Positions 8,421-22,366 of a DNA stretch of 64,000 nt are shown here, piece by piece. Location of the stretch: NCBI RefSeq assembly GCF_017306545.1, contig NZ_JAFKID010000020.1, forward strand, positions 24,615-88,614, given 5' to 3'. The DNA is from Mesorhizobium sp. GTDB taxonomy: Bacteria > Pseudomonadota > Alphaproteobacteria > Rhizobiales > Rhizobiaceae. Position 1 is the stretch's first letter; each line of letters begins with the position of its first letter. Both the position numbers and the translations under genes were made by a program. A model generated the notes under the pieces. It did not search any database, had not been told where the DNA came from, and saw only the letters and a list, made by a program, of their open reading frames with translations.

Positions 8421-10664
8421 TCAGCGGCCGAGCGTGAGGTAGAGTTTCGGCAGAAGGTCCGTCAGCCGCTCCACCGTGGCGATGGAGATGGCGTTCTTTT
8501 GGCCGAAGATTCGACTGAGATAGGAGTCGGCGCTGGAATCGAGGCCGGCGCAGAAGGTGTCGATGGCCAGCCGGCTGAGCCCCTGTACGGCCTTGCGGGC
8601 GTCCTCGACCAGGTAGTGCCGGTCATCGACGTCGATGTCGGAGGGCTCGCCGTCGGTGACGACCAGAAGCAGGCGGCGATAGCTGCGTTGCGTGGCGAGG
8701 TCGGCGCCGGCGTGCCGCATGGCAGCACCCAGCCGAGTCGAGAAGCCGCTTTGTAGGCCGGCCAGCCTCGATTCAACCAGTCCGTCGTAGGGCTGGCCGA
8801 AATCCTTGATGCGCATGTAGCGCACGTCGTCACGCTTGTCCGAGCAGAAGGCAGCGAGCGCGAACGGGTCGCCAAGGCCCGCCATCGCCTGCGACAGCAG
8901 CGCGGCCGCCTGGCGCTCGACGTCGAGCACGGTCTGCCGGCCGTCGCGCACCCGGTCGCTGGTCGATTGCGAGGCGTCGAGCAGCAGCAACACGGAAAGG
9001 TCGCGGCTGCGGCGCTCGTAGCGGCCGTGGATGCGCGGGCTGGGCGGCTCGCCGATGCGGCGCGCGACCGCCGCGTCGATGCAGGCGTCGATATCGAGGA
9101 AATCGCCTTCCGATTGCCGGCGCAGGCGCTCGGCGCGGCTGACACGGGCCGAGCGGATGAGCGCCGTCAGCCGGTTGGCGAGGTCGGCGCGCTGCTCGCG
9201 CAGGCGCGCCACCCGCTCGGCCGGCCCGGAATCGGCGAGATATTCCTTGACCGATGTCCAGTCGCGCTGCTCGCGCCCGGTGACGTAGTCGAATTCCGGG
9301 TAGCGGGCGACCAGCACGCCGTTCATTTCGACCTGCTGGATCTCGACCTGGCCGGCTTCGCTGTCCGGCTTGTTCTCGGGTTCGACCCGGTCGGGCCGGT
9401 CTTCGTTTTCCTCCTGCCGGATGCGGGCGCTCGACAGCACTTCCTCGGCGTCGGCGTTCTGCTGGTCGTCGTCGCCGAAATCCCACAGGCCGAGATTGTC
9501 GTCGCGGTAGGGCGGCTGGACGACGTAGGTCTTGGCGTCGAACTGGAGCCGCATCTGGCCGAGGTCGTTGCCGAGCAGGTTGCCGATACGGCGGCTGAGC
9601 TGCTGGTCGCGCAGGTCGGGTTCAGCGAGGAAAGCTTCCCGCGCCTTGATCACCCAGGGGTTCGGGTCTTCGTAGGCCGGATCGGCCAATGCGCGGGAGA
9701 GCCGGGCAAACAGGGTTTGCGCGTTGACGGCGCTCGTCGGCTGCGCCGTGTGGAAGGGCTGGAACAGCCGCGCCAATCCCGGCAAGTCCTGCATGGCCAG
9801 GTGCTCGACGCGGGCGTCCTCGATCAGCGACACCAGCGCGATCTGCATCGGCCGCAGGCTGCCGAGCGGGAAGCGCTCGCGCGTGAAGCGCAGATGCGCG
9901 CCGATATGGGCGACGGCGGCCCGGTAGAGGCGCTCGGCCTCGGTGCGCTGGAAGCCGGGATAGGCGGACGGCAGGCGCACGATGCTGCCGTCGAAGCCCG
10001 GCCGGCGACGCGCCTGTTCGGGTGCGTTGGCCGGCGTTTCCCTGAGCGGCGGGTTGTCGCCCCATAGGGCGGTGAGGAACGGCTTCAGTCTCGCCTCCAT
10101 GTCGGCGAAGCCGGCCTGGCCGCTGGTTCGTTGCAGCCAGCGGATGGCGGACGGGTCTTCCAGCGTGAAGAACCGCAAGCGCCGTTTGGCGTCGCCTTCG
10201 GCGGAGCGGACGCCGATGCGCAGCCAGGCTTCCAGCCCGTCGAGGTCGATCTCAGCCAGGAGTTTCGGCATTGCCTTCAGCAGCGCCGTCAGGGATTCGG
10301 GAGCGGTCGTGTTGGCGTATTCCATCAGCGCGACCCAGCGGACGAAGCCGCCTTCGCCGAGCCTGCCCGCGGCATCGAGCGCGGTTTCGGAGAGCAGGGC
10401 GGCGGCGGTGCGGCCGGAGCGGATGGCGACGCTCGAAACGGTGCCGGCAAGATCGATCGCCGCCTGCGGGGTCGTCGCGCGGGCGATGTCGGGAGAGGAG
10501 CGGATATAGGCGTCGGTGACGGCGTCGCCGTAGCCTGCCCCGGCGAGACGGCGGCAGGCGCGAATCCAGGCCGGATGCCGGTCGCCCGGAAACGCCGAGG
10601 GCGCGTCACGGTCGAGCGCCTGCTGATGGACGGCGTCGCGCCGGTCCGGCGCATTCTCATTCAT
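8421..10664 (-). CDS. NorD/CbbO-like VWA-domain protein
   Basis: A 747-residue protein with a C-terminal von Willebrand A domain. The MIDAS motif DASQS (D563, S565, S567) and a VVTDGEPSD strand are visible. The long N-terminal part is helical and rich in Arg, Ala and Glu, as in NorD and CbbO. Known relatives pair with a MoxR-type AAA ATPase and help activate or insert cofactors into a target enzyme (nitric oxide reductase for NorD, Rubisco for CbbO). Here the partner gene is 5 bases upstream, and the neighbours are amide genes, with no nor or cbb genes. The likely client is therefore the amidase or transporter (inference). It is the last gene of the amide unit. Confidence 0.85.
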   Translation of the reverse strand: MNENAPDRRDAVHQQALDRDAPSAFPGDRHPAWIRACRRLAGAGYGDAVTDAYIRSSPDIARATTPQAAIDLAGTVSSVAIRSGRTAAALLSETALDAAGRLGEGGFVRWVALMEYANTTAPESLTALLKAMPKLLAEIDLDGLEAWLRIGVRSAEGDAKRRLRFFTLEDPSAIRWLQRTSGQAGFADMEARLKPFLTALWGDNPPLRETPANAPEQARRRPGFDGSIVRLPSAYPGFQRTEAERLYRAAVAHIGAHLRFTRERFPLGSLRPMQIALVSLIEDARVEHLAMQDLPGLARLFQPFHTAQPTSAVNAQTLFARLSRALADPAYEDPNPWVIKAREAFLAEPDLRDQQLSRRIGNLLGNDLGQMRLQFDAKTYVVQPPYRDDNLGLWDFGDDDQQNADAEEVLSSARIRQEENEDRPDRVEPENKPDSEAGQVEIQQVEMNGVLVARYPEFDYVTGREQRDWTSVKEYLADSGPAERVARLREQRADLANRLTALIRSARVSRAERLRRQSEGDFLDIDACIDAAVARRIGEPPSPRIHGRYERRSRDLSVLLLLDASQSTSDRVRDGRQTVLDVERQAAALLSQAMAGLGDPFALAAFCSDKRDDVRYMRIKDFGQPYDGLVESRLAGLQSGFSTRLGAAMRHAGADLATQRSYRRLLLVVTDGEPSDIDVDDRHYLVEDARKAVQGLSRLAIDTFCAGLDSSADSYLSRIFGQKNAISIATVERLTDLLPKLYLTLGR

Positions 10665-10669
10665 GGCGG

Positions 10670-11509
10670 TCAGATGCAGGCGGCGACGGCGGCCTTCAGC
10701 GCGTCGCGCATGTCGGGGTCGTCGGTGATCGGCAGAACAAGGGCGACCTCGCAGGCTTCGTCGACCGGAATGCCGCGCTTCGCCAGGAGGCCTGCATTGA
10801 TGAGCATGCGGGTGGAGGCGCCTTCTTCCAGCCCGTGACCTTTCAGGTTGCGCGCGCGCTGGCCGATGCGCACCAGCGTCGCAGCCGTCTTGCGGTCGAC
10901 GCCGGATTCGGTGGCGACGATCTCCGTCTCGATCGCCTCGTCGGGGTAGGAGAAGGCGATCGCGGCGAAGCGCTGCTTGGTCGATTCCTTCAGGTCTTTC
11001 AGCACGCTCTGGTAGCCGGGGTTGTAGGAGATGACGAGATGGAAGTCGGGGTGGGCCTTCAGCACCTCGTTTTTCTTCTCAAGCGGGAGGATGCGGCGGT
11101 CGTCGGTCAGCGAGTGGATGACGACGGTGGTGTCCTGGCGCGCCTCGACGATCTCGTCGAGGTAGCAGATGGCGCCGGAACGTACGGCGAGCGTCAGCGG
11201 TCCGTCATGCCAGACGGTGCCATCGGCATCGAGCAGGTAACGGCCGACGAGGTCGGAGGCTGTCATGTCTTCGTGGCAGGAGACGGTGACGAGCGGGCGC
11301 TTCAGCCGCCAGGCCATATGCTCGACGAAGCGCGTCTTGCCGCAGCCGGTCGGACCCTTGAGCATGATCGGCATGCGCGAGGAAAAGGCCGCTTCGAACA
11401 GGCCGATCTCGTTGGCGACGGGCCGGAAATACGGCTCGGACGCAATGCGGAAATCATCGAGCCTTTCGCCGCCGGAAGCGCCGGCGACAAAACCCGTACC
11501 TTGGTGCAT
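10670..11509 (-). CDS. MoxR-family AAA+ ATPase (CbbQ/NirQ/NorQ type)
   Basis: A 279-residue AAA+ ATPase with Walker A GPTGCGKT (52-59), Walker B ICYLDE (114-119) and sensor-1 Asn163 in SYNPGY. Length and motifs fit the CbbQ/NorQ group. These ATPases form rings that, with a VWA partner, remodel a client enzyme. The start has GGAGA 5 bases before it. It lies between the amidase gene and the VWA gene, where the Pseudomonas amide operon has the unrelated ATPase AmiB. A role as an amidase or transporter maturation factor is inference. Confidence 0.88.
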
Positions 11510-11596: not shown

Positions 11597-12634
11597 CTAA
11601 CGGTGGGCGGCAACCTTGTTGGGAATGCCCTCGATTGGGGCTTCCGGCGTGCCGACGGTCTGTCGGGTCATCGCCTCGACCTTTTCGCGGGTGCCTTCCG
11701 GGTCGGTGATCCACTGTTTGTAGAAGTTGTACGGGCACACCGCATGGCCGCGCGTGTCGTCACCGGAATTGATGAGGCCGGTGTAGCCGCGGTGCAGAAG
11801 CTTGAAGAGGTGGTTCTGCGACTGCATGTTGCGGCGGGCGTCGCGGATCAGCGACACCGAGAGCTGGCCGTACTGGATGCCGTTCTCCTCCGTGCCGCAT
11901 TCGCCCAGCGTGCGGCCGTCGAAACCGATGATGGAGGAATGACCGAAGTAGGAATAGACGCCGTCGAAGCCGGCCGCGTTAGCGACCGCCACGTAGACGT
12001 TGTTGGCCCATGCCATCGCCCTGGAGATGAGGATCTGCTGTTCCTTGGCGGGGTACATGTAGCCCTGGCAGCGGATGATCAGTTCGGCGCCGCGCATGGC
12101 GCAGTCGCGCCAGATCTCGGGGTAGTTGCCGTCGTCGCAGATGATGAGGCTGATCTTCAGGCCCTTCGGGCCTTCGGTGACATAGGTGCAGTCGCCCGGA
12201 TACCAGCCCTCGATCGGCACCCAGGGCATGATCTTGCGGTATTTCTGCACGATCTCGCCCTTGTCGTTGATCAGGATCAGCGTGTTGTAGGGCGCCTTGT
12301 TGGGATGTTCCTCATGCCGTTCGCCGGTGAGCGAGAAGACGCCCCAGACGCGCGCCTTCTTGCAGGCGTCGGAGAAGATTTTCGTCTCCTCGCCGGGGAT
12401 GGCCGAGGCGGTTTCGTACATCTCCTTCTGGTCGTACATGATGCCGTGCGTGGAATATTCGGGGAAGATCACCAGATCCATGCCCGGCAGGCCGGCCTTC
12501 ATGCCCTCCACCATCTTGGCGATGTTGCGGGCGTTGGCGAGCACTTCGTCGCGCGTATGCAGCCGAGGCATCTTGTAGTTGACGACGGCAACGCCGACGG
12601 TGTCGTTGCTGCTCGAAATATCGCCGTGATACAT
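11597..12634 (-). CDS. amiE: Aliphatic amidase
   Basis: A 345-residue nitrilase-superfamily amidase that hydrolyses short aliphatic amides (acetamide, propionamide) to acid and ammonia in the cytoplasm. The sequence closely follows Pseudomonas aeruginosa AmiE over nearly its whole length. It opens [20 protein letters not shown], and the catalytic triad falls at the same numbers as in AmiE: Glu59 (FPEYS), Lys134 (KYRKI) and Cys166 (IICDDG). The start at 12634 has GGAGGAG 8 bases upstream; the upstream extension to 12676 is not needed. The extreme C-terminus differs from the Pseudomonas enzyme. It follows the importer genes by 34 bases, so uptake and hydrolysis should be co-expressed. Confidence 0.97.
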
Positions 12635-12668
12635 GTCATACTCCTCCTTGGGGTTTACCGGTGTCCGT

Positions 12669-13364
12669 CTAGACAACCAGATGCTGTTGGATCATCTCGT
12701 CGCTGAGTTGGCCGATCGGCCCTTCGACCGCGACGCTGCCTCGATTGAAGATGGCGAAATGCCGCGAGGCGCGGCGGGCGAAGGCGATGTTCTGCTCGAC
12801 CAGAATGACGGTCAGGCCGTGCTTGCGGTTCAGGTCGATCAGAACGTCTTCGATCTGTTCGACGATGTTGGGCTGGATGCCCTCGGTCGGTTCGTCGAGC
12901 AGCATGATCTTGGGTTCGGACAGCAGCGCGCGCGCTATGGCGAGCTGCTGCTGCTGGCCGCCCGACAGGTTGCCGCCCCGCCGGTTGAGGAATTCCTTGA
13001 GAATGGGAAAGAGATCGAGCACCCATTCGGCGATGCGGCCGCCGCCGCCCTTGGCGGCGAAGGTGCCGACCATCAGGTTCTCGCGGACGGTGAAGGAAGG
13101 CAGGATGCCGCGCCCCTGCGGCACGTAACCGACGCCGGCCAGCGCGCGCTTGTGGGTCGGCTGGTCGACCAGTTCCTCGCCGTCGAGGCGGATCGAGCCG
13201 GTGGTGCGGCTCATCAGGCCGAGCACAGTGCGCAGCAGCGTGGTCTTGCCGACGCCGTTGCGGCCGAGGACGGAAAAGAAGTCGCCCGCCTCGACCTTGA
13301 GCGAAACCGATTGCAGCGCCCGGCTGCGGCCGTAGAAGCCGTCGACATTGGCAAGCTCAAGCAT
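12669..13364 (-). CDS. Urea/short-chain amide ABC transporter ATPase (UrtE/FmdF-like)
   Basis: A 231-residue ATPase with Walker [10 protein letters not shown] (34-42), signature LSGGQ (133-137) and Walker B IMLLDE (153-158). The stretch [15 protein letters not shown] after Walker B is characteristic of UrtE. It overlaps the previous gene by 8 bases. With the UrtD-like ATPase it forms the motor of the amide/urea importer encoded just upstream. Confidence 0.92.
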
Positions 13365-14121
13365 GGCCGATTCCTCCCGAGCCGAGATAGGCGTCGCGCA
13401 CGGCCTGGTTGGCTTCGATCTCGGCGATCGTTCCTTCGGCGAGCATCTTGCCCTGGTGCATGACGGAAATGGTCTGGGCGATGTCGCGCACGAAGCCCAT
13501 GTCGTGCTCCACGACGATCAGCGTGTGCTTGCCGCGCAGGCGGCAGAACAGTTCCGCCGTCTTCTTGGTTTCCTGCTGCGTCATGCCTGCTGTCGGCTCG
13601 TCCATGAGGATGAGGAGAGGGTTCTGGGCGAGGATCAGCGCGATCTCCAGCCACTGTGTCTGCCCGTGCGACAGGAAGGCGGCCGGCGTTTCCAGTTCGT
13701 CCTGGAGGCCGACCAGCGCCGCCAGCCTCTCGATCTCTTCCTTCTCGCCGCTCTGGCCGAAGCTGAACAGGTTCGCCAGGATTCCCGGCTGGCCGGAACG
13801 ACCGATATAGAGATTGTCGCGCACGCTGAGTTCGCGAAAGACGCTCGGCACCTGGAATTTGCGGCCGATGCCGGCGCGGGCGATCGAATGTTCGCTGAGC
13901 CTGTGGATAGGCTTGTCGCGGAAGCGGACCTCGCCGGCGGACAGTTTCGTCTTGCCGCAGATGACGTCGAGGGCGGTGGTCTTGCCGGCGCCGTTCGGCC
14001 CGATGAGGCAGCGCAGTTCGCCCTGGCCGACGCCGAGGGTCAGGTCGGAGATGGCGATGAAGCCGCCGAACGAGACCTGGGCCCGGTCGATCAGAAGCTG
14101 CGATTGCGGGGCCGGGTTCAT
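13357..14121 (-). CDS. Urea/short-chain amide ABC transporter ATPase (UrtD-like)
   Basis: A 254-residue ATPase with Walker A GPNGAGKTT (41-49), Walker B ILMDEP (171-176) and the UrtD-like GMTQQETKKTAELF stretch. The signature reads LSHGQ (150-154) in place of LSGGQ, a variant normal for this subfamily. The open frame runs far upstream, but the ATG at 14121 starts the conserved domain and overlaps the permease stop by 4 bases (ATGA). Confidence 0.92.
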   Translation of the reverse strand: MNPAPQSQLLIDRAQVSFGGFIAISDLTLGVGQGELRCLIGPNGAGKTTALDVICGKTKLSAGEVRFRDKPIHRLSEHSIARAGIGRKFQVPSVFRELSVRDNLYIGRSGQPGILANLFSFGQSGEKEEIERLAALVGLQDELETPAAFLSHGQTQWLEIALILAQNPLLILMDEPTAGMTQQETKKTAELFCRLRGKHTLIVVEHDMGFVRDIAQTISVMHQGKMLAEGTIAEIEANQAVRDAYLGSGGIGHA

Positions 14122-15281
14122 GACAGGCTCTCCGCGTGACGGGTGTTGGCGACCGCTTCCGTGCGCTGCGGTTGCAGTTGCGGCGGTGGCACCGGGGCCG
14201 CCCGCCTGTGTCCGAACTTGCCGGCGAGCTTCTCGACGGCGCCGGCGATGCCTTTGGGCAGGAACAGCACGACGAGGACGAACAGCAGGCCCATGATGAG
14301 CGTCCAGCTGTCGAGGAAGGTTTCGGATTCGGAGAGCGCGCCCTGAGTGCCGGTGACGACCAGCGCGCCGAGCATGGCGCCCAGCAGGCTCTGCCGGCCG
14401 CCGACGGCGACCCAGATGACGACGGAAAGGGAGAGCGGCACGCCGAGGAAGGTCGGCGAGGCGAACTCCATGACGATGGTGTAGAGCATGCCGGCGAGGC
14501 CGGCGATCGCCGCCGAAACCGAGAAGATGAAGATCTGGTAGAGCGCCACGTCGTAGCCGAAGAAGCGGACGCGGTCCTCCTGGTCGCGGATCGCCTGGAC
14601 GATGAGGCCGGTCTTGCTCTTGGTGACGGCCAAAGCGAGGAACAGCGAAACCGTCAGGCAGATGGCGACGAGGTAGTAGCTGGACGAAGAGTAGGCGTCG
14701 AAGGTGAAGCCGGCGACGTCGAACTGGGCGAGGTCGGTGATGCCGTTGAAGCCGCCCGTATAGGCCTGCTGGTCGATGATGAGGAGTTGCACCACCACCA
14801 TCGCCGCCAGCGTGGTGATGGCCGCATAGACGCCGGTGACGCGGCCACGGAACATGAACCAGCCGAGCAGGGCGGCGAACAGCATCGGCACGACGATGCC
14901 GGCGGCGACGCCGAAGGTCATGGAATAGAAGGGTTTCCAGAACCAGGGCAGCTCGGGAACGTTGTTCCAGACCATGAAGTCGGGCAGGCCGTCGGCGCCG
15001 GTATGGATGGGGATGGTCTTCAGCTTCAGCGCCATCGCCATGCAGTAGGAGCCGAGGCCGAAGGTGGTGGCCTGGCCGAGATTGAGGATGCCGGCATAGC
15101 CCCACGACAGGCTGAGCGAGACGGCGAGGATGCCGAGCACCAGATAGCGGGCGTATTTGTTGAGCAGGAACGCATCGTGAAGGACGAGCGGAAGCGCCAG
15201 GATCGCCAGGCACACGGCCGCGTAGACGGCGATCTCCAATTTGGTCTTGCCGGACACTTTGTTCTTTCCCTGGACTGGCAT
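14118..15281 (-). CDS. Urea/short-chain amide ABC transporter permease (UrtC-like)
   Basis: A 387-residue inner-membrane permease of the LivM/UrtC family. The family-typical LSWGYAGILNLGQATTFGLG motif lies near residues 59-78. The C-terminus has a basic, Pro/Gln-rich cytoplasmic tail. The open frame on this strand continues over 2 kb further upstream in shadow; the ATG at 15281 was chosen because the hydrophobic protein begins there. It lies 8 bases after the UrtB-like gene. Confidence 0.9.
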   Translation of the reverse strand: MPVQGKNKVSGKTKLEIAVYAAVCLAILALPLVLHDAFLLNKYARYLVLGILAVSLSLSWGYAGILNLGQATTFGLGSYCMAMALKLKTIPIHTGADGLPDFMVWNNVPELPWFWKPFYSMTFGVAAGIVVPMLFAALLGWFMFRGRVTGVYAAITTLAAMVVVQLLIIDQQAYTGGFNGITDLAQFDVAGFTFDAYSSSSYYLVAICLTVSLFLALAVTKSKTGLIVQAIRDQEDRVRFFGYDVALYQIFIFSVSAAIAGLAGMLYTIVMEFASPTFLGVPLSLSVVIWVAVGGRQSLLGAMLGALVVTGTQGALSESETFLDSWTLIMGLLFVLVVLFLPKGIAGAVEKLAGKFGHRRAAPVPPPQLQPQRTEAVANTRHAESLS

Positions 15282-15289
15282 GGGCGGGC

Positions 15290-16159
15290 TCACGCACGCA
15301 CGCGGGCGGTGAAGAGGCCTTGCGGCCGGAAGCGGATGATGACGACGATGGCCAGCAGCACGAGCGCCTTGGCGATGGTGTCGTTGGAATAGAAGGCGAG
15401 GTAGCCGGACAGTTCGCCGAGGATGCCGGAGCTTGCCAGCGTGCCCATCAGGCTCTGCGCGCCGCCGAGCACGACGACCATGAAGGCGTCGACGACGTAG
15501 GTGGTGCCCATTTCGGGCGAGACGCTCTTGAGCGGCGAAACCAGCGCACCGGCGAGGCCCGCGATGCCGGCGCCGTAGGCGAAGGTCAGGCGGTAGATGC
15601 GGCTGGCGTTGATGCCGAAGGAGGAGGCGACGGACCTGTTCTGGGTGATGGCCCTCAGCTTCAGGCCGAAGCTGGTGTAGCGGTAGATGCCCCAGGTGAC
15701 GGCAAACAGCGCCAGCGCGACGGCCAGGATGAACAGCCGGTAGGCGGACTCGGTCGCGCCGAAGACGGTGACGCTGGCGGAAAGCGATTCCGGCATCTGC
15801 ACGTAGCGCAGTTCGCCGCCGGCGGTCAGCCGGATCGCCTGCTGGGCCATGACGCCGATGCCCCAGGTGGCGAGGATGGTATCGAGAGGCCGGGCGTAGA
15901 GGTGACGGATGACCAGCACCTCGACCAGCCAGCCGACCGCGGCCAGGATGAGGAAGATCGCAACCAGGCTGGGCAGGAGGCTGAGGCCGAGTTCGGTCTG
16001 CAATGCCCAGGCCGCATAGGCGCCGAGCATGACGAACTCGCCATGCGCCAGGTTGATGACGCCGGTGACGCCGTAGATGACGGCAAGGCCGAGCGAGACG
16101 AGCATCAGGATCGAGGCGATGCTCAGTCCGGTCATGATCTGCGAAACGACGATGTCCAT
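15290..16159 (-). CDS. Urea/short-chain amide ABC transporter permease (UrtB-like)
   Basis: A 289-residue LivH/UrtB-type permease. It carries GVTGVINLAHGEFVMLGAY early in the chain, a hallmark of the family. It lacks the long N-terminal periplasmic domain that some UrtB proteins carry. It forms the translocation path with the UrtC-like subunit. Confidence 0.92.
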   Translation of the reverse strand: MDIVVSQIMTGLSIASILMLVSLGLAVIYGVTGVINLAHGEFVMLGAYAAWALQTELGLSLLPSLVAIFLILAAVGWLVEVLVIRHLYARPLDTILATWGIGVMAQQAIRLTAGGELRYVQMPESLSASVTVFGATESAYRLFILAVALALFAVTWGIYRYTSFGLKLRAITQNRSVASSFGINASRIYRLTFAYGAGIAGLAGALVSPLKSVSPEMGTTYVVDAFMVVVLGGAQSLMGTLASSGILGELSGYLAFYSNDTIAKALVLLAIVVIIRFRPQGLFTARVRA

Positions 16160-16189
16160 GGCGCGTGCTTTTCGAAACGGAGGAGCGTT

Positions 16190-16215
16190 GGCGGCGATGG
16201 CGAACCATCGCCGCC
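16190..16215 (-). other. Perfect hairpin after the amide-binding-protein gene
   Basis: An 11-bp perfect stem (GGCGGCGATGG / CCATCGCCGCC) with a 4-nt loop (TTCG on the transcribed strand) lies 13 bases after the binding-protein stop and before the UrtB-like gene. No T-tract follows. It is a likely mRNA stabiliser that raises binding-protein yield. Confidence 0.6.
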
Positions 16216-16228
16216 GCGCGGGGCGCGA

Positions 16229-17476
16229 TCAGATCTGCTTGAGGCCTTCGGCCGTGCACTTCTGGTGCGGGTAGGCCTTGTAGGGATCGGGCTCGAGCCA
16301 GTTGTCCGACTGCTTGAGGATCTTGAACTGGCCGTCGGGCTGGCACTGGCCGATCTTCGGCCACAGCCAGGTGTGCTGGTTTTCCGGCTCGATGCGCACC
16401 TTGCCTTGCGGTGCGATCATCTCCTGGCCCTTGAGCGCTTCGCGGATGCCGAGGGGCGTGATGTCGCTGCCGGCCAGCTTCTCGGCCGCCTGCTTGAACA
16501 GGTGGACCTGGAAATAGGACGGCTCGGAGACGAAGTGCGTGACCTTGTCGGCGCCCCAACGCTTCTTGTAGGCATCGACGAATTTGTGGTTTTCCGGCGA
16601 ATCCCAGACCATGAAGTAAGGGGCCGAGGTGAAGTGGCCGGCGGCGGCTTCGCCGCCCATCGCCGCCACTTCGTTCTCGGACGTGGTCAGGCTCGCCATC
16701 GGCATGGTCGCCGGATCGAGGCCGGCCGCGTGATACTGCCGATGCAGCGCCACCACCGAGTCGCCGACGACGGTGGAGAAGATGACGTTCGGCTTTTCCG
16801 CCTTCAGCTTGTTGATGACGGAAGAGAACTCCGAGTGGCCGAGCGGCACGTATTCCTCGGCCACCACTTCGGCGCCGAGTTCGGCCAGAAGCTTCTTGCA
16901 GTAGTTGTTCTCTTCCTTCGGATAGATGTAATTGGAGCCGATCAGGTACCAGCGCTTGCCGAACTTCTCGACCAGCCAGGGGATGAAGTCGTCCTGCTGC
17001 TGGTTGGGCACGGCGCCCGTGTAGACGACGTTCTTCGAGCACTCGCGGCCTTCGTAGAGGGTCGGGTACCAGAACAGGTTTTCCTGCTTCTCGAACACCG
17101 GCAGCACCGCCTTGCGGCTGGCGGAGGTGTAGGCGCCGAACACCGACACGCACTTGTCGGACATCACCAGCTTGCGCGCCTTCTCGGCGAAGGTGGCGGG
17201 ATCGGATGCCGGGTCTTCCACCACCGCCTCGATCTGCATGCCGTTGATGCCGCCGGCCGCGTTGATCTCCTCGATGGCGAGGATGGTGGCCTTGTTCAGC
17301 GATTCCTCGATGATGGCGGTGGTGCCGGTCAGCGAAAACAGCACGCCGACCTTGACCTTGCCGTCGGCGGCGCGCGCCAGCGAATAGTTCTTGTTCCAGA
17401 TATGCGGAAAGCCGACCAGCGTGGCGGTGCCGAGCGCGGCGGTTCCCTTTAGGAAATTGCGACGGTTCTTGTTCAC
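16229..17476 (-). CDS. Urea/short-chain amide ABC transporter substrate-binding protein (FmdD/UrtA-like)
   Basis: A 415-residue periplasmic binding protein. The N-terminus carries a twin-arginine motif (NRRNFLKG) followed by a hydrophobic stretch, so export by Tat is likely. Motifs shared with UrtA, FmdD and the sensor AmiC include YPTLYEGRE and YTGAVPNQQQ. The start is a GTG at 17476 with an AGGGGAGAAAG ribosome site; the upstream in-frame extension runs into the leader and has no site. It is the first gene after the antitermination leader at 17600-17676. The ligand is inferred to be a short amide or urea from the amiE/amiC/amiR neighbours. Confidence 0.92.
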   Translation of the reverse strand: MNKNRRNFLKGTAALGTATLVGFPHIWNKNYSLARAADGKVKVGVLFSLTGTTAIIEESLNKATILAIEEINAAGGINGMQIEAVVEDPASDPATFAEKARKLVMSDKCVSVFGAYTSASRKAVLPVFEKQENLFWYPTLYEGRECSKNVVYTGAVPNQQQDDFIPWLVEKFGKRWYLIGSNYIYPKEENNYCKKLLAELGAEVVAEEYVPLGHSEFSSVINKLKAEKPNVIFSTVVGDSVVALHRQYHAAGLDPATMPMASLTTSENEVAAMGGEAAAGHFTSAPYFMVWDSPENHKFVDAYKKRWGADKVTHFVSEPSYFQVHLFKQAAEKLAGSDITPLGIREALKGQEMIAPQGKVRIEPENQHTWLWPKIGQCQPDGQFKILKQSDNWLEPDPYKAYPHQKCTAEGLKQI

Positions 17477-17688: not shown

Positions 17689-18357
17689 CTAGCTGAGAAG
17701 ATCGTAGGAGTCAACAATGGCGGTAGCGACGGCGCCGATGGTGACGCGGCGCTCCATCGCCTGCCGGCGCAGGTAGTTGTAGGCCTCTTCCTCGGTGATG
17801 TTCTTGACGCGGATCAGCAGCGATTTGGCGCGCTCGACGCTGCGCATGGTGCGCAGGCTTTCGTCCAGCTTCTCGATGCGTCCGCGCAGGCGCCGCTCGT
17901 AGAGGAAGTGGCTGCGCGCCAGCGACAGCACGGTCTGCACCGAGCGCACGGTCGTCGGATAATGCAGCACGCCGTGGGCGGCGCAGTTGTGCAGAAGCTT
18001 GAGATCGAGCGGGCCCTCGCCGCGGTCGACCACCACCAGCGCAGCGCCCGGCTCTCCCGGTATCCACGGCAGCCGCTGCGGCAGGTCGGCCGAGAGCGTG
18101 CAGAAAACGACGTCGCAATGAACCGGGATCTGCGGCGGCATGGGCCATTCGTGATGGACCTGGCAGCGCAGGCGCTGCAATTCCCGGATGAGGCGTTCGC
18201 CGTCGTCGTCGCGCTCGACGACGGCGGCCACCTTCAGATCCCACAGGGCAGGGGAGGCGCCGGTCGCGGGCGGGGTGTGCGGCGTTTCCTTGCGCGGTGA
18301 GCCCGCCTGTCCGGTCCTGTCGCGGCCAAAACTCTTCATGCCGATCGTCTCTTGCAC
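17689..18357 (-). CDS. amiR: ANTAR-domain antitermination regulator AmiR
   Basis: A 222-residue RNA-binding regulator. Residues about 40-145 form a pseudo-receiver domain. A coiled-coil helix follows at about 150-172, then an ANTAR domain at about 163-217 with the typical ERAKSLLIRVKNITEEEAYNYLRRQAM. In Pseudomonas, AmiR is held inactive by AmiC and, once released by amide, stops transcription termination in the ami leader. The first 35 residues form a polar extension. The start is GTG at 18357 with AAGGGAG 6 bases upstream, 21 bases after amiC; an ATG at 18339 is an alternative. The stop lies 12 bases before the leader-2 hairpin. Confidence 0.93.
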   Translation of the reverse strand: MQETIGMKSFGRDRTGQAGSPRKETPHTPPATGASPALWDLKVAAVVERDDDGERLIRELQRLRCQVHHEWPMPPQIPVHCDVVFCTLSADLPQRLPWIPGEPGAALVVVDRGEGPLDLKLLHNCAAHGVLHYPTTVRSVQTVLSLARSHFLYERRLRGRIEKLDESLRTMRSVERAKSLLIRVKNITEEEAYNYLRRQAMERRVTIGAVATAIVDSYDLLS

Positions 18358-18378: not shown

Positions 18379-19539
18379 TCAGCACAGTTCCAGCGCGCGC
18401 TGGCCGAGGCTGCGTCCGTAGCCGAGCAGGTAGGGGTCGGAGCGGACGCAACTTTGCGATTCGTAGACGAGGTCGAACTGGCCACGCCGGTTCGCCCGGC
18501 CGATGCGGGTCCAAAGGTCGGCGTGGCCCCACATGGGATTGATGGAAACGTCGCCCTGCGGCGCCTCGAATTCGGACCCCATCACCGAGGCCCGCAGGAT
18601 CTCGGTGTCCATGGAATTGGTTTCCTCCAGCGTCTTGGCGAAGACGTTGACCTGGAAATAGGAGGCCTCCAGGCACATGTTGGTCGGCTCGTCTTCGCCG
18701 TAACGCTTCTGGTAGCGGCGCACGAACGTGGAATTGCGTTCGTTTCCGACACCCTGGAAATAGGGCGCGGCGGTGATGTGGCCTTCGCCGACGTCATGGC
18801 CCATGACGCGGATTTCGGCTTCCGTCGTGGTCAGGCTGGCGATCGGCATGACTTTCGGGTTCAAGCCCAGTTCGGCATAGGCCTGGTAGAGATAGACCGT
18901 GGCGTCGCCGACGACGGTGGAGAAGATGACGTCGGGCTGCGCGCGCTTGATGTCGCGCATGACGGGCAGGAATTCGGCTCGCTTGGCGCCCAGGTTGACA
19001 TAGGATTCGCCGACCACCGTGCCGCCGCTGTTGCGCACGAGTTCGCGCATGATGCGATTGGATTCGCGCGGATAGACGTAGTCCGAGCCGATGAAATAGA
19101 AGCGCGTGCCGTAGGTTTCCATCAGGACACGGCAAAGCTCGACGCTGTTCTGGTTCGGCGTCGCGCCGGTGTAGATGACGTTCGGCGAGAATTCGAACCC
19201 TTCGTAGAGCGTCGGGTACCACAGCAGGCCGTTCAGGCGCTCGACGACCGGCACCACGGCCTTGCGACTCGACGAGGTGTAGCAGCCGAAGATGGTGTTG
19301 ACGCCGTCCTCGACCATCAGTTTCTTGGCGTAGCGCCCGAAGGCGCTCGCTTCGGAGGCAGGGTCATAGCAGATCGGCTCGATCGGCCTGCCGTTGACGC
19401 CTCCCGCGGCGTTGATTTCCTCTATGGCCGTCAGCGTGCCCCTCAACTGCGTTTCCTCGATCACGGCCATGAAGCCGGAACGGGAAAAGAGGACGCCGAC
19501 GCGCCAAGGTTCGGAGGTATTGCTCGATTTGATCAACAT
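18379..19539 (-). CDS. amiC: Amide sensor / negative regulator AmiC
   Basis: A 386-residue protein with the periplasmic-binding-protein fold but no signal peptide, so it acts in the cytoplasm as the amide sensor. Motifs match Pseudomonas AmiC: FGCYTSSSRKAVVPVVER, YPTLYEGFEFSPNVIYTGATPNQNS, FIGSDYVYPRESN and VIFSTVVG. AmiC binds AmiR and releases it when an amide is bound. The start at 19539 is preferred over 19623; a GGGAG lies close upstream, though spacing is short. It stands before amiR, as in Pseudomonas. It is clearly paralogous to the exported binding protein at 16229-17476. Confidence 0.93.
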   Translation of the reverse strand: MLIKSSNTSEPWRVGVLFSRSGFMAVIEETQLRGTLTAIEEINAAGGVNGRPIEPICYDPASEASAFGRYAKKLMVEDGVNTIFGCYTSSSRKAVVPVVERLNGLLWYPTLYEGFEFSPNVIYTGATPNQNSVELCRVLMETYGTRFYFIGSDYVYPRESNRIMRELVRNSGGTVVGESYVNLGAKRAEFLPVMRDIKRAQPDVIFSTVVGDATVYLYQAYAELGLNPKVMPIASLTTTEAEIRVMGHDVGEGHITAAPYFQGVGNERNSTFVRRYQKRYGEDEPTNMCLEASYFQVNVFAKTLEETNSMDTEILRASVMGSEFEAPQGDVSINPMWGHADLWTRIGRANRRGQFDLVYESQSCVRSDPYLLGYGRSLGQRALELC

Positions 19540-19619
19540 ACGCTCCCAGGGTTCCCCAACCGCTTTTCTTTTCTGTGGGATCGCGGCCGCCGTCATCCTG
19601 ATAGCGGCCGCGATCACGG

Positions 19620-20636
19620 TCAACCGGCGAGAAGCTCCTTGAGCTTGCCGTCGAGAAATTTCACGTCCTCAACGCTGGTGCCCGGTCCGCCGGCGAAGTG
19701 TCCCCATACGGATTCGAAAGGCACGAGCCTGGCGTTCGGCATGTTCGCGACCTCGACCTCGCTGTCTTCGGGCGGGAAGTAGAGATCGGTGCGGCACGGC
19801 ATGACGTAGGCCTTCGGCTTGATGGCGGCGAGCGCCTTCTTGAAGTCGCCGTGATAGAGCTCGTTGTCGGAGATGTCGCCGTACTGCCAGGTCCAAAGCA
19901 TTGCCAGAAGATCGTTGGCGTCACGGGCCAGGAAGTGCCCTTCCCAGAACGCGACCAGGAAGTCCTCCATGCTGGAATAGCCGAGATCCTTGCTGTCGAG
20001 CTGCTGGCGGTAAAATGCCTGCGAAAGCCCCCAGCCGGCATAGACGCGCCCTACGGCGCGCAGGCCCCGCGTCGGCCTTTCCTTGTAGAAACCTTCGGCC
20101 CAGACGGCATCGGCGGTGAGGGCGGCCTTGACCCCTTCGAGGAAGACGAAGTTGTGGCGCGAGCATTTGGCGGAGCCGCAGAAGGGCACGATGATGTCGA
20201 CCATGTCGGGGTAGAGCGCGCCCCACTGGAACGCCTGCAAGGCGCCCATCGACCAGCCCACCACCATGCGGATCTTCTCGATGCCGAACTTCTCCGTCAC
20301 CAGCCGGTGCTGGGCGCGGACGTTGTCGTAGATGGTGACGTTGGGAAAACGGCCAGCATTGTAGGGCTCGGGCGTGTTCGACGGCGAGGACGACATGCCG
20401 TTGCCGAACATGTTGGGGATGATGATGAAATACTTGTCGGGGTCGAGCGCCATGCCCTTGCCGATCAGCCAGTAATTGTCCTGCTGGAAGCCGGAGTACC
20501 AGGTCGGGTAGACGATGACGTTGTCCTTGGCGGCGTTCAGCTTGCCGAAAGTCTTGTAGGCAAGCTTGGCGTTGCGCAGCGTGGCGCCGCGCTGGAAGGA
20601 AAAGGCGCCGAGGTCGAAGATTTCGTAGTCTTCCAT
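19620..20636 (-). CDS. Alpha/beta hydrolase (homoserine acetyltransferase-like fold)
   Basis: A 338-residue cytoplasmic alpha/beta hydrolase of the MetX-like group. The nucleophile Ser129 lies in GWSMG, with Asp284 (CRTDLYFPP) and His313 (WGHFAGG) as the rest of the triad. A MetX activity is unlikely in this context; hydrolysis of an ester, amide or lactam is more plausible (inference). It lies between the NCS1 permease gene (60 bases upstream) and amiC (80 bases downstream) in the amide unit, downstream of leader 1. It is not part of the classical Pseudomonas ami operon, so it may widen the substrate range. Confidence 0.82.
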   Translation of the reverse strand: MEDYEIFDLGAFSFQRGATLRNAKLAYKTFGKLNAAKDNVIVYPTWYSGFQQDNYWLIGKGMALDPDKYFIIIPNMFGNGMSSSPSNTPEPYNAGRFPNVTIYDNVRAQHRLVTEKFGIEKIRMVVGWSMGALQAFQWGALYPDMVDIIVPFCGSAKCSRHNFVFLEGVKAALTADAVWAEGFYKERPTRGLRAVGRVYAGWGLSQAFYRQQLDSKDLGYSSMEDFLVAFWEGHFLARDANDLLAMLWTWQYGDISDNELYHGDFKKALAAIKPKAYVMPCRTDLYFPPEDSEVEVANMPNARLVPFESVWGHFAGGPGTSVEDVKFLDGKLKELLAG

Positions 20637-20696: not shown

Positions 20697-22010
20697 TCAG
20701 GCCGGTGCCCGAGCGGCGACCGACTGGCGGCCGATGATGGCGTAGGCGATGCCGCCGGCCAGCATGGCGCAGATGGCCGTGCAGTATTGCGGCGCGTAGA
20801 AGTCCACGACAAAGGCGACGGCCGATCCGATCGCCCAGGCGACGAAGGCGGTCGGGCGCCAGTCTTCGCTGATTTCCGCGTTCTTCCTGTAGAGGTACTG
20901 GTCGACCAGGATGATGGCGCCGATCGGCGGCACCAGAATGCCGAGCAGGGTCAGCCACTGGATGAAGAAGGCCCAGACGTTGCCGGCGGCGACGACGATG
21001 CCGACGATGCCGAGCACCACCGCCATGACGCGCATGCGGGTGCCGATGATGCGCGACCAGCCGGTGGCCGCATGGTAGAGGACGTGGGCGCAGACGGAGC
21101 CGAGGTTGCAGTAAAGGAACAGGAAGGCGAGCAGGCCGAGCCAGCCGATCTGCTTGGCGTGCATGTAGCCGAACATGTTGTCGGCGCCGAACGGATTGGC
21201 GTTCGGAACCGCAAGGGCCGCCGTCATGACGCCGCCGACCAGCATGGCGGCGAGGTTGGCGAAGGGGAAGGCCGAGAAGGTGGCGATGATGGAGCTTTTC
21301 GAATCTTTTGCCCAGCGGTTGATGTCGCCGCTGACCGTGCCCGCGTCGATGAACAGCGCGATCACCACCGTCAGGCCGACGCCCATCGACATGCTGGCGG
21401 CGCCGTTGTTGCCGGCATAGGCGAAGACCGCGTCCCAGCCGGCGGTCGAGGCGGAATCGAACACCACCCAGCCGCCCAGGATGACGAACAGCGGCACGGA
21501 AACCAGTCCGATCAGGTGCAGGCCGTGCACGCCGATGAAGGTGATGCCGATGTAGAGCAGGCCGGCGACGATGGTCATCGTCACGTAGTTGAGGTCGTAG
21601 GCCGAACTGATGAGCGCTCCGGTGATGCCTGTCTGCACCGCGTACCAGCCGAGCAGCAGCGTCGACAACAGCCCCGAGGCGAAGACGTAGCCCTTCTTGC
21701 CGAAGACGATGGAGGCGAGCAGCGCGAAGTTCATGCCGCGGCGGGTTCCCAGCACGCCGATCGCGCTGATATAGGCGAACATGACGAGGTTGCCGATCAG
21801 CATGGCCCAGAAGGCGCTCTTGAAGCCCATGCCGAGGACAAGGATGGAGCCGGTCATGGCGCCGGTGATGATCATCGGAAAGCCGATCCAGACGGTCGTC
21901 ACGGAAAACAGGCTGCGGCGGGCCGCCATCGGCACGGGCTGATGTTCGTATTCTTCTCCGAGAACGTGGTCGACGTCGTCGATCGCGTCGACATTGCTTG
22001 TTTTGGTCAT
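20697..22010 (-). CDS. NCS1/cytosine permease family transporter (CodB-like)
   Basis: A 437-residue inner-membrane transporter with about twelve hydrophobic segments. It shows NCS1 features such as GFPMIITGAMTGSILVLGMG in the first helix region and FIDAGTVSGDINRWAKDSK around helix 6. NCS1 carriers import nucleobases, allantoin, hydantoin and similar ring amides with H+ or Na+. The start at 22010 has AGGAGGG 6 bases upstream. It is the first gene of the amide unit and follows an untranslated leader of about 320 bases with an ANTAR-type attenuator. A ring amide or ureide substrate is therefore a reasonable guess, but it is not shown by the sequence. Confidence 0.87.
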   Translation of the reverse strand: MTKTSNVDAIDDVDHVLGEEYEHQPVPMAARRSLFSVTTVWIGFPMIITGAMTGSILVLGMGFKSAFWAMLIGNLVMFAYISAIGVLGTRRGMNFALLASIVFGKKGYVFASGLLSTLLLGWYAVQTGITGALISSAYDLNYVTMTIVAGLLYIGITFIGVHGLHLIGLVSVPLFVILGGWVVFDSASTAGWDAVFAYAGNNGAASMSMGVGLTVVIALFIDAGTVSGDINRWAKDSKSSIIATFSAFPFANLAAMLVGGVMTAALAVPNANPFGADNMFGYMHAKQIGWLGLLAFLFLYCNLGSVCAHVLYHAATGWSRIIGTRMRVMAVVLGIVGIVVAAGNVWAFFIQWLTLLGILVPPIGAIILVDQYLYRKNAEISEDWRPTAFVAWAIGSAVAFVVDFYAPQYCTAICAMLAGGIAYAIIGRQSVAARAPA

Positions 22011-22231
22011 TGCACCCTCCTGGGTCAATCGCGTTGCGTGGGTGAGGCCCGTCGTCGCGATGGGACGCCCTTGTCCACGTCCGCTACTGCCTGGTCGGCG
22101 CCGTCAGCCATGAATTCGTCGAACAGTTGTTCTGCACGGTGGGCTCATGCCTTCTTCCGCGTCCGTCCTCGTCCTCCAGGCCGGCCGGCCCTGTTCCCCC
22201 AGGCTTCTCGGTCGGGTATCGCACAAACGAC

Positions 22232-22277
22232 AAAGGCCTCCCGATGGCTCCTGACGCGGAGACAAAGGGAGGCCTTT
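22232..22277 (-). terminator. Terminator hairpin of leader 1 upstream of the NCS1 permease
   Basis: An 11-bp perfect stem (AAAGGCCUCCC / GGGAGGCCUUU on the minus strand) with a 24-nt loop. The U-rich tail is modest (CCUUUGUCGUUUG), so terminator strength is uncertain. The 5' arm overlaps the second small hairpin of the ANTAR-type element. Confidence 0.7.
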
Positions 22278-22311
22278 CTGCCTTGATCTGATTGGTGGCC
22301 TCGTTGCCACC
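22270..22311 (-). promoter_or_regulatory. ANTAR-target antiterminator RNA (two hexaloop hairpins), leader 1
   Basis: On the minus strand P1 is GGUGGC-AACGAG-GCCACC (22294-22311). It is followed by a 10-nt linker and P2, AGGC-AGAAAG-GCCU (22270-22283). P1 has the canonical A1/G4 hexaloop and nearly the same loop as leader 2 (AACGAG against AACGAA). The linker length is identical. P2 keeps A1 but has A at position 4, so it is non-canonical. P2 overlaps the 5' arm of the terminator. The element should respond to the AmiR encoded downstream in the same transcript. Confidence 0.75.
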
Positions 22312-22337
22312 TTCCTGCTTATTTAACAGGCGAAACA

Positions 22338-22366
22338 ACGCTACATTCAAGGAACTTTCGAGTCAA
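22338..22366 (-). promoter_or_regulatory. Sigma70-like promoter for the amide unit
   Basis: On the minus strand, TTGACT (22366-22361) and TAGCGT (22343-22338) are separated by exactly 17 bases. Transcription would begin near 22331, about 20 bases before ANTAR hairpin P1. The -10 match is moderate (3 of 6). Confidence 0.5.

Follow-up and report, generated by a model that had tools for sequence, protein, structure and literature searches.

The amide locus in the window, the whole 64-kb stretch of DNA analyzed here, carries three candidate attenuators, termed leader 1, leader 2a and leader 2b, and this arrangement is usual in relatives. Leader 1, which stands at the head of the locus, is very likely an ANTAR-type transcription attenuator worked by the locus's own AmiC-AmiR pair; it probably ends transcription early unless released by this amide-sensing protein pair. 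At the base of this reading are direct observations of the anatomy of leader 1, of its conservation and covariation, and of its link to an AmiR gene. The genes of the locus are as follows:

20697-22010, minus strand: NCS1-type permease, the first gene behind leader 1, with its ATG at 22010 and AGGAGG before the ATG
19620-20636, minus strand: alpha/beta hydrolase, MetX-like (PRK07581 model)
18379-19623, minus strand: AmiC-like amide sensor (Peripla_BP_5; PDB 1pea, AmiC, E 5.9e-86)
17689-18357, minus strand: AmiR-like regulator (AmiR_N and ANTAR; 1qo0_D, E 7.1e-14)
11597-17476, minus strand: SBP, UrtB, UrtC, UrtD, UrtE and aliphatic amidase, behind leaders 2a and 2b
10670-11509, minus strand: CbbQ-type AAA protein
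8421-10664, minus strand: VWA protein

The aliphatic amidase matches 2plq (E 5.4e-196), and the AmiC-like sensor scores higher to 8tg1, an entry named only as an extracellular ligand-binding receptor, than to AmiC itself. With an AmiC-like sensor, an AmiR-like ANTAR protein and an amidase all encoded in the locus, the predicted gene content is that expected of AmiC/AmiR amide regulation. The SBP gene, whose start was read from the sequence as the GTG at 17476, is separated from amiR by a gap of about 210 nt. A 646-aa open reading frame suggesting a UrtC-UrtD fusion was rejected because its N-terminus is spurious; the two proteins are encoded separately. The leaders and their parts are as follows:

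22366-22338, minus strand: sigma70-like promoter of leader 1, TTGACT-17-TAGCGT, read from the sequence
22330-22314, minus strand: P0, a 6-bp 5ʹ hairpin (CCUGUU-AAAUA-AGCAGG) between the likely start site and P1, from folding
22311-22294, minus strand: P1 of leader 1, 6 bp (GGUGGC-AACGAG-GCCACC), with the first ANTAR-type hexaloop (A1, G4)
22283-22270, minus strand: P2 of leader 1, 4 bp (AGGC-AGAAAG-GCCU), with the second hexaloop (A1, A4), overlapping the 5ʹ arm of the terminator
22277-22232, minus strand: intrinsic terminator of leader 1, with an 11-bp stem, AAAGGCCTCCC...GGGAGGCCTTT
17714-17686, minus strand: promoter-like site of leader 2a, TTGACT-17-TAGCGT, inside the 3ʹ end of amiR
17676-17605, minus strand: leader 2a, found by the strict scan and by model R1 (both described below)
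17676-17659, minus strand: P1 of leader 2a, loop AACGAA
17648-17635, minus strand: P2 of leader 2a, loop AAUGGA
17638-17605, minus strand: terminator of leader 2a
17576-17499, minus strand: leader 2b, imperfect, found by model R1
17576-17562, minus strand: P1 of leader 2b, with a 5-nt loop, UCCGC
17549-17538, minus strand: P2 of leader 2b, loop ACUGUG
17543-17499, minus strand: terminator of leader 2b

The promoter, both hexaloop hairpins, the 10-nt linker between P1 and P2 and the 11-bp terminator of leader 1 are all present on the minus strand as the first-pass annotation had described them. Its remark that the linker of leader 1 has the same length as that of leader 2a is also correct (10 nt in both), and so are the two irregularities that it had pointed out, namely A in place of G in loop 2 (AGAAAG) and a weak U-tract, which is interrupted, with 6 U in the first nine positions versus 8 in leader 2a; the U-rich stretch extends to about 22223. 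In leader 1, 8 nt are common to P2 and the terminator 5ʹ arm. The minimum free energy (MFE) fold consists of P1 and the terminator (-48.7 kcal/mol, z -5.8, 0 of 200 shuffles), and P2 is absent from it, forming only once the 3ʹ arm of the terminator is removed, which fits the expectation for mutually exclusive structures. A strict scan, which required a P1 stem of 5 bp or more with loop AxxG, a P2 stem of 3 bp or more with loop A-x-x-R, and an overlapping terminator stem of 9 bp or more with a U-rich stretch behind it, gave two matches in the 64-kb window, leader 1 and leader 2a; 60 dinucleotide-shuffled windows, scanned on both strands, gave one.

Most features of the published definition of ANTAR leaders, as set out in the accessible part of PMC3369931, are found in leader 1. 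Its two hairpins stand in tandem, have hexanucleotide loops and exceed the minimum stem of 3 bp; loop 1 (AACGAG) has A1 and G4; P2 overlaps an intrinsic terminator in the right orientation; and the genome encodes an ANTAR protein, in this case AmiR, whose gene belongs to the same unit and lies about 3.9 kb farther downstream. The 10-nt linker lies within the defined range; for the eut leaders, the same part of that paper gives linkers of 5-12 nt and reports that linkers of 3 and 14 nt drastically lowered eutP induction. Loop 2 departs from the definition, with A1 and A4 (AGAAAG) where A1 and G4 are called for, and because loop 2 breaks this rule, leader 1 is filed as a variant functioning like an ANTAR leader. 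A shift in the register of P2 that would place G at loop position 4 was sought by eye and rejected, with no other hexaloop found (AGAAAG, AAAAGG, AAGAAG). At the gathering score, Rfam gave no matches in the 64-kb window.

Relatives were collected by an AmiR-alignment scan of the genome collection, which yielded 33 loci. Together with five further stretches and the window, these make up 39 sources, 37 of which include the sequence before the head gene; 13 of 18 additional stretches had been dropped as duplicates, judged by length, of contigs already among the 33 loci. P1 and P2 occur before the head gene (permease or amiC) in 30 of the 37 loci, window included, a count that takes in seven Shinella-type loci with a bulged P2 stem and two loci whose P1 loop has 7 nt (L070, L078). 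The Shinella-type stems have a purine-1/G4 hexaloop only with a C bulged; the unbulged loop has C1 and T4. One locus, L086, has P1 and no P2 hexaloop, and leader 1 is absent before the head gene in six of the 37 (L068, L076, L082, L085, L087, L088). All 30 leader-1 loci have a TTGAC-17/18-TA box upstream of P1, at a distance of 20-28 nt. The promoter score is at least 10 in 29 of them, a value reached by 17 of 2000 random 95-nt segments, and 9 in L048 (-10 TACGTG), a value reached by 71 of 2000. Loop 1 has A1 in 29 of 30 loci and G4 in 30 of 30, with 7-nt loops counted from the 5ʹ side.

The genes behind leader 1 are less constant. Permease and hydrolase come first in 16 of the 39 sources (the window, most Mesorhizobium, Nitratireductor, Pannonibacter and L080) and follow the amidase in 10 (Shinella- and Bosea-type), and in the remaining sources they were not seen at either place; across L058-L090, the pair shifts its position within the locus between lineages. 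In loci that do not have these two genes at the head, the leader is located directly before amiC in most. Two loci with distant AmiC relatives (49-50% identity) lack the arrangement: L132 has no match to the leader model R1 (described below), and L133 has one, echoed on the opposite strand, at some 6 kb from AmiC. In one Mesorhizobium locus (L100, 915-1063), a sub-threshold Rfam match to the Brucella sRNA BASRCI27 (44.2/59.8 bits, E 5.1e-07) lies near leader 1.

Structural conservation was assessed in alignment A2, which holds the 18 leader-1s closest to the window, by layout plus L063 and L081, in 16 distinct rows. The RNAalifold consensus of A2 is, unprompted, P1 plus the terminator. In P1, four of the six pairs change on both sides and the two apical pairs are invariant. 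For P1 and P2 taken together, the share of paired cells is 95% and the number of cells with both-side changes is 13 (0 of 500 shuffles as high for each measure), four pairs change on both sides (13 of 500 as high), and further pair types show no excess over shuffles (433 of 500 as high); all of the both-side changes in this test fall in P1. The covariation analysis proposed in the first-pass annotation is thus borne out for P1 and not for P2, which has no covariation in A2 because its pairs hardly vary, being constant apart from one broken cell. All 18 A2 rows have the same GGC in the P2 5ʹ arm, a part of P2 outside the terminator, and the adjoining linker varies. Conservation of the terminator without the two small hairpins, which the first-pass annotation had counted against its own reading, is not what relatives display: both hairpins recur, and P1 covaries.

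P0 is variable in sequence and is kept as a shape in most lineages. In 13 lineage representatives picked by hand, the MFE values of the 22 nt preceding P1 add up to -79.7 kcal/mol versus a mean of -36.3 kcal/mol for mononucleotide shuffles, and 0 of 1000 shuffles are as low; tested locus by locus, 14 of 30 are at or below 0.05. The stems are unrelated in sequence, as in CCUGUU/AGCAGG, GGCCGU/GCGGCC and CGUCAG/CUGACG. The Roseibium P0 is present by eye, the stem has only 3 bp in L078, and it is absent in two Bosea-type representatives. In leader 2a, only 9 nt separate the -10 site from P1, leaving no room for P0. As a guess, P0 might protect the 5ʹ end of the RNA.

Position 4 of loop 2 divides the leaders. 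Among the 30 leader-1 loci, it is A in 18, window included, and G in 12, although seven of these 12 G4 readings depend on a bulged register chosen by eye and five stand without re-registering. The division coincides with the selection of A2, all 18 rows of which have A4, the 12 leader-1s left out being those read as G4. The corresponding position is G in 36 of 38 and A in 2 of 38 leader 2a sequences, and in leader 2b it is G in 25 and A in 10 of the 35 scored; G4 of loop 1 is strict, occurring in 30 of 30 leader-1s and 38 of 38 leader 2a sequences. These tallies were partly re-registered by eye (the seven Shinella-type leader-1 loop 2s, which read CAATGT or CGATGC beforehand, L071, and several 2a and 2b loops). 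The leader 2a tally excludes L081 (38 rows), and that of leader 2b excludes L076, L081 and L088 (36 rows), with loop 1 scored in 28 rows and loop 2 in 35.

Loop-2 A4 looks like a fixed lineage trait of leader 1, not decay, as judged from these alignments. Within the terminator 5ʹ arm, A4 faces U in 18 of 18 A2 rows, so that terminator strength may select A4. If leader 1 were instead degenerate and unresponsive, its terminator would merely lower constitutive transcription, and leaders 2a and 2b would be the real switch. A4 and the interrupted U-tract are what such a leader might display, yet decay does not predict that A4 and the GGC of the P2 arm would both be invariant in 18 of 18 A2 rows, and G4 of loop 1 is kept in 30 of 30 loci; degeneration of leader 1 is therefore very unlikely.

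How AmiR might accommodate A4 can be considered by comparison with EutV. In the published motif, loop-2 position 4 is G, a base that is contacted in the EutV complex according to the accessible part of PMC8934654, and a loop-2 G-to-A change lowered induction by EutV according to that of PMC3369931. Leader 1 may thus be a weaker site, or the AmiR of this locus may be more tolerant. An alignment of AmiR with EutV, using our own mapping to the paper's residue numbering, shows Glu160, Tyr164, Arg168 and Met172 to be kept, and the AmiR family has Met (position 170 of alignment A1) at the site of EutV Arg142, a residue that, in the accessible description of the complex, contacts G4 of P2 and makes no contact with G4 of P1. 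A change of Arg142 to Met as the cause of A4 was rejected as correlation only: AmiR of P. aeruginosa has Gln at this site, and its leader is said to have G4 in both loops, which leaves the link between Met and A4 only suggestive. For motif searches, the consequence is practical, since 18 of the 30 leader-1s would go undetected if G4 were strictly required in loop 2.

The association between leader 1 and AmiR was followed with a leader model, R1, trained on 18 leader-1s with no leader 2a or 2b in training; its E-values are rough. R1 finds 13 of the 19 head regions outside the training set among the 39 sources. AmiR was matched at E 1e-60 or better in 10 of the 297 family genomes on which R1 was run, and these were the ten with the best R1 scores (E 1.2e-4 or better, with every R1 match at the amide locus). 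Four of these had supplied training rows (the window's genome, G224, G326 and G275) and the other six none; of the latter, five have a match at the head position (G361, G331, G360, G262, G297), and the sixth, G321, has its listed match at the 2b position. Weak matches (1.4e-4 to 0.0099) occur in 13 of the 287 family genomes without AmiR, which exceeds the number expected from the rough E-values. In the window's own genome, R1 finds nothing outside the amide locus below E 0.5.

Another test of the AmiR link, on 146 same-genus genomes, was rejected as mostly circular because all 10 strongly matched genomes had supplied R1 training rows. In that set, the 10 genomes whose AmiR reaches 73% identity or more are the ones with strong matches (E <1e-20), and no other genome of the 146 has a comparable match. 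Among those with AmiR at 63-69%, G130 has R1 matches at 1.4e-7 (2b) and 9.9e-5 (leader 1), G079 has one at 0.099 on another contig, and G121 has none; weak matches (6.1e-4 to 0.1) occur in 36 of the 133 same-genus genomes without such an AmiR. On plasmids, R1 finds leader 1 (79.8 bits), 2a and 2b in the Roseibium algicola locus, and leaders before amiC (66.4 bits), after amiR and before cbtB in Agrobacterium. The opposite strand of leader 1 is also matched by R1 in many loci because the terminator is palindromic.

With both hairpins recurring, P1 covarying and the leader model tracking AmiR, the ANTAR-type identity of leader 1 is well supported, and the placing of an ANTAR-type leader at the head of the amide unit in the first-pass annotation stands on the same grounds. 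A real ANTAR attenuator might nevertheless have another ANTAR protein as its main partner, with A4 as a mark of specificity. The genome does have a second ANTAR gene outside the amide locus (G000:C24:27210-27815), and A4 sets leader 1 apart from leader 2a (A4 in 2 of 38). Against such a partner, good R1 matches follow close AmiR in the family set (some match to the window's AmiR exists in 141 of the 146 same-genus genomes), leader 1 heads the unit that encodes AmiC and AmiR, and leader-1s with G4 exist outside the near set (5 loops without re-registering, 12 with it), making another main partner very improbable.

The same evidence bears on whether leader 1 might instead be a small RNA, regulatory or antisense, that is transcribed from its own promoter to its own terminator and in which the hairpins exert no control over downstream genes. 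Its compact promoter, hairpins and strong terminator would suit such an RNA, and Rfam reports a sub-threshold match to ctRNA_p42d (25.5 bits versus a gathering score of 50; E 0.0019 and 0.058) and a weak alignment to RF02865 ncS01 (E 1.9). However, the ctRNA_p42d match is limited to the P2-terminator part, for which reason identity with this antisense RNA was rejected, and it is not among the matches listed (E up to 0.1) for three other leader-1 loci. A small RNA would also leave the covariation of P1, the invariant P2 arm and the AmiR link unexplained, and hardly any credence can be given to it.

R1 matches also occur at some further positions. In Rhizobium subbaraonis (L081), R1-type leaders precede an amidase, follow amiR and precede the cobalt-transport genes cbtB-cbtA (leaders at 1715-1625 on the minus strand, 8608-8699 and 11955-12046), and on the Agrobacterium plasmid (L131), the leaders after amiR and before cbtB are at 8917-9009 and 12263-12354. 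The AmiR regulon may be wider than the amide locus. Weak matches at G045:C1:1581781-1581862 (E 0.043) and G091:C9:97048-97129 (E 0.013) are situated upstream of a different ANTAR gene, at a distance of about 1.15 kb, and are perhaps nas-type leaders. Another match (L076, 2538-2452, minus strand, E 0.0027) is located away from the amide genes of its locus.

Between amiR and the SBP gene, two R1 matches with E <0.05 are present in 34 of 39 sources, window included, and a single one in L068, L076, L081, L083 and L088. The first-pass annotation had counted two ANTAR attenuators in the locus, a number that the second match in this gap raises to three candidates. In the window, leader 2a is matched at 17678-17595 (29 bits) and leader 2b at 17579-17490 (22.8 bits, E 0.0028); leader 2b is not among the matches of the R1 search of the window's own genome. 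Its fold is barely above shuffles (z -1.1), and with its 5-nt loop it is too weak in the window to be accepted as a full ANTAR leader; in many relatives it is better. With a promoter-like site of its own for leader 2a, a transcript from the first promoter would meet three terminators and one from the second promoter two. The position of this promoter-like site inside the 3ʹ end of amiR also means that conservation of the AmiR C-terminus may partly reflect the promoter.

By analogy with AmiC/AmiR of P. aeruginosa and EutV of E. faecalis, leader 1 would respond to amide through AmiR binding, termination and readthrough. RNA polymerase would start near 22331. Without amide, the AmiC-like protein would hold the AmiR-like protein, the RNA would fold into P0, P1 and the 11-bp terminator, and most transcripts would end near 22225-22232. 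With amide, AmiR would be released and would bind the P1 hexaloop and then, on its emergence, the P2 hexaloop; P2 would take the terminator 5ʹ arm, so that the terminator could not form. Readthrough into the permease, hydrolase, amiC and amiR genes would constitute positive autoregulation, and it would continue to leaders 2a and 2b, which would gate the ABC transporter and the amidase likewise.

A broader reading, put forward tentatively and with considerable doubt, joins these elements into a three-stage series attenuator in which leader 1 is a distinct ANTAR class, characterized by a shape-conserved P0 and by either purine at loop-2 position 4, with the Met at A1 position 170 possibly relaxing the site. 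Leader 1 would gate the regulator unit, and the 2a-2b tandem in the gap of about 210 nt would gate the transporter-amidase unit, so that full expression would need up to three separate antitermination events; leader 1 may be tuned to a different amide threshold via the Met at the EutV Arg142 site. If the proposed working is true, the locus is a natural series of attenuators under one amide sensor in alphaproteobacteria. Such a system would allow study of the way in which a single ANTAR protein acts on sites differing at G4, the specific contact of EutV, of whether terminators in series make induction sharper, and of the contribution of a 5ʹ hairpin.

The mechanism proposed here is the same as that given for ANTAR leaders in the accessible parts of PMC3369931, PMC8934654, PMC3369936 and PMC6759348. 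Nor is a locus with several attenuators an undescribed arrangement, as the first-pass annotation had supposed: going by those parts, the eut locus of E. faecalis has four ANTAR terminators, at eutP, eutG, eutS and eutA (PMC3369931, PMC8934654), and at least 13 attenuators in six transcription units were predicted in D. acetoxidans (PMC3369931). The eut system resembles the window in having several dual-hexaloop attenuators along one catabolic locus. As far as its accessible descriptions go, it differs in that EutV is phosphorylated by a kinase, whereas ligand-bound AmiC is expected here, in having A1 and G4 in both loops, whereas leader 1 has A4 in loop 2, and in that the 2a-2b series before one gene and P0 are not found in them. 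D. acetoxidans is similar in that attenuators outnumber transcription units (PMC3369931); its case, in the accessible part of that paper, concerns nitrogen metabolism genes in general, with no amide locus, and is prediction only.

Another similar system is the amiE leader of P. aeruginosa, which belongs to the same type of sensor-regulator pair (1pea, 1qo0) and to amide catabolism. According to the accessible part of PMC3369931, this leader also has a pair of hexaloop hairpins, of which the second overlaps an intrinsic terminator. The accessible accounts describe one leader there, before amiE, whereas the window's locus has three candidates, the first of which precedes a permease-hydrolase-amiC-amiR unit and has A4 in loop 2. 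The acetamidase operon on a plasmid of Klebsiella sp. KOS9 shares amiC, amiR, an ABC transporter, amiE and a CbbQ-type AAA protein with the window (PMC13209695); this comparison is by description only, and leaders are not mentioned in the accessible part of that source. In the open-licence literature, taken without the supplementary tables of PMC3369931, no description of an amide locus with several leaders was found, which is weak evidence that none exists. Compared with these systems, what is new here is the amide setting with its three stages, the loop-2 A4 class and P0.
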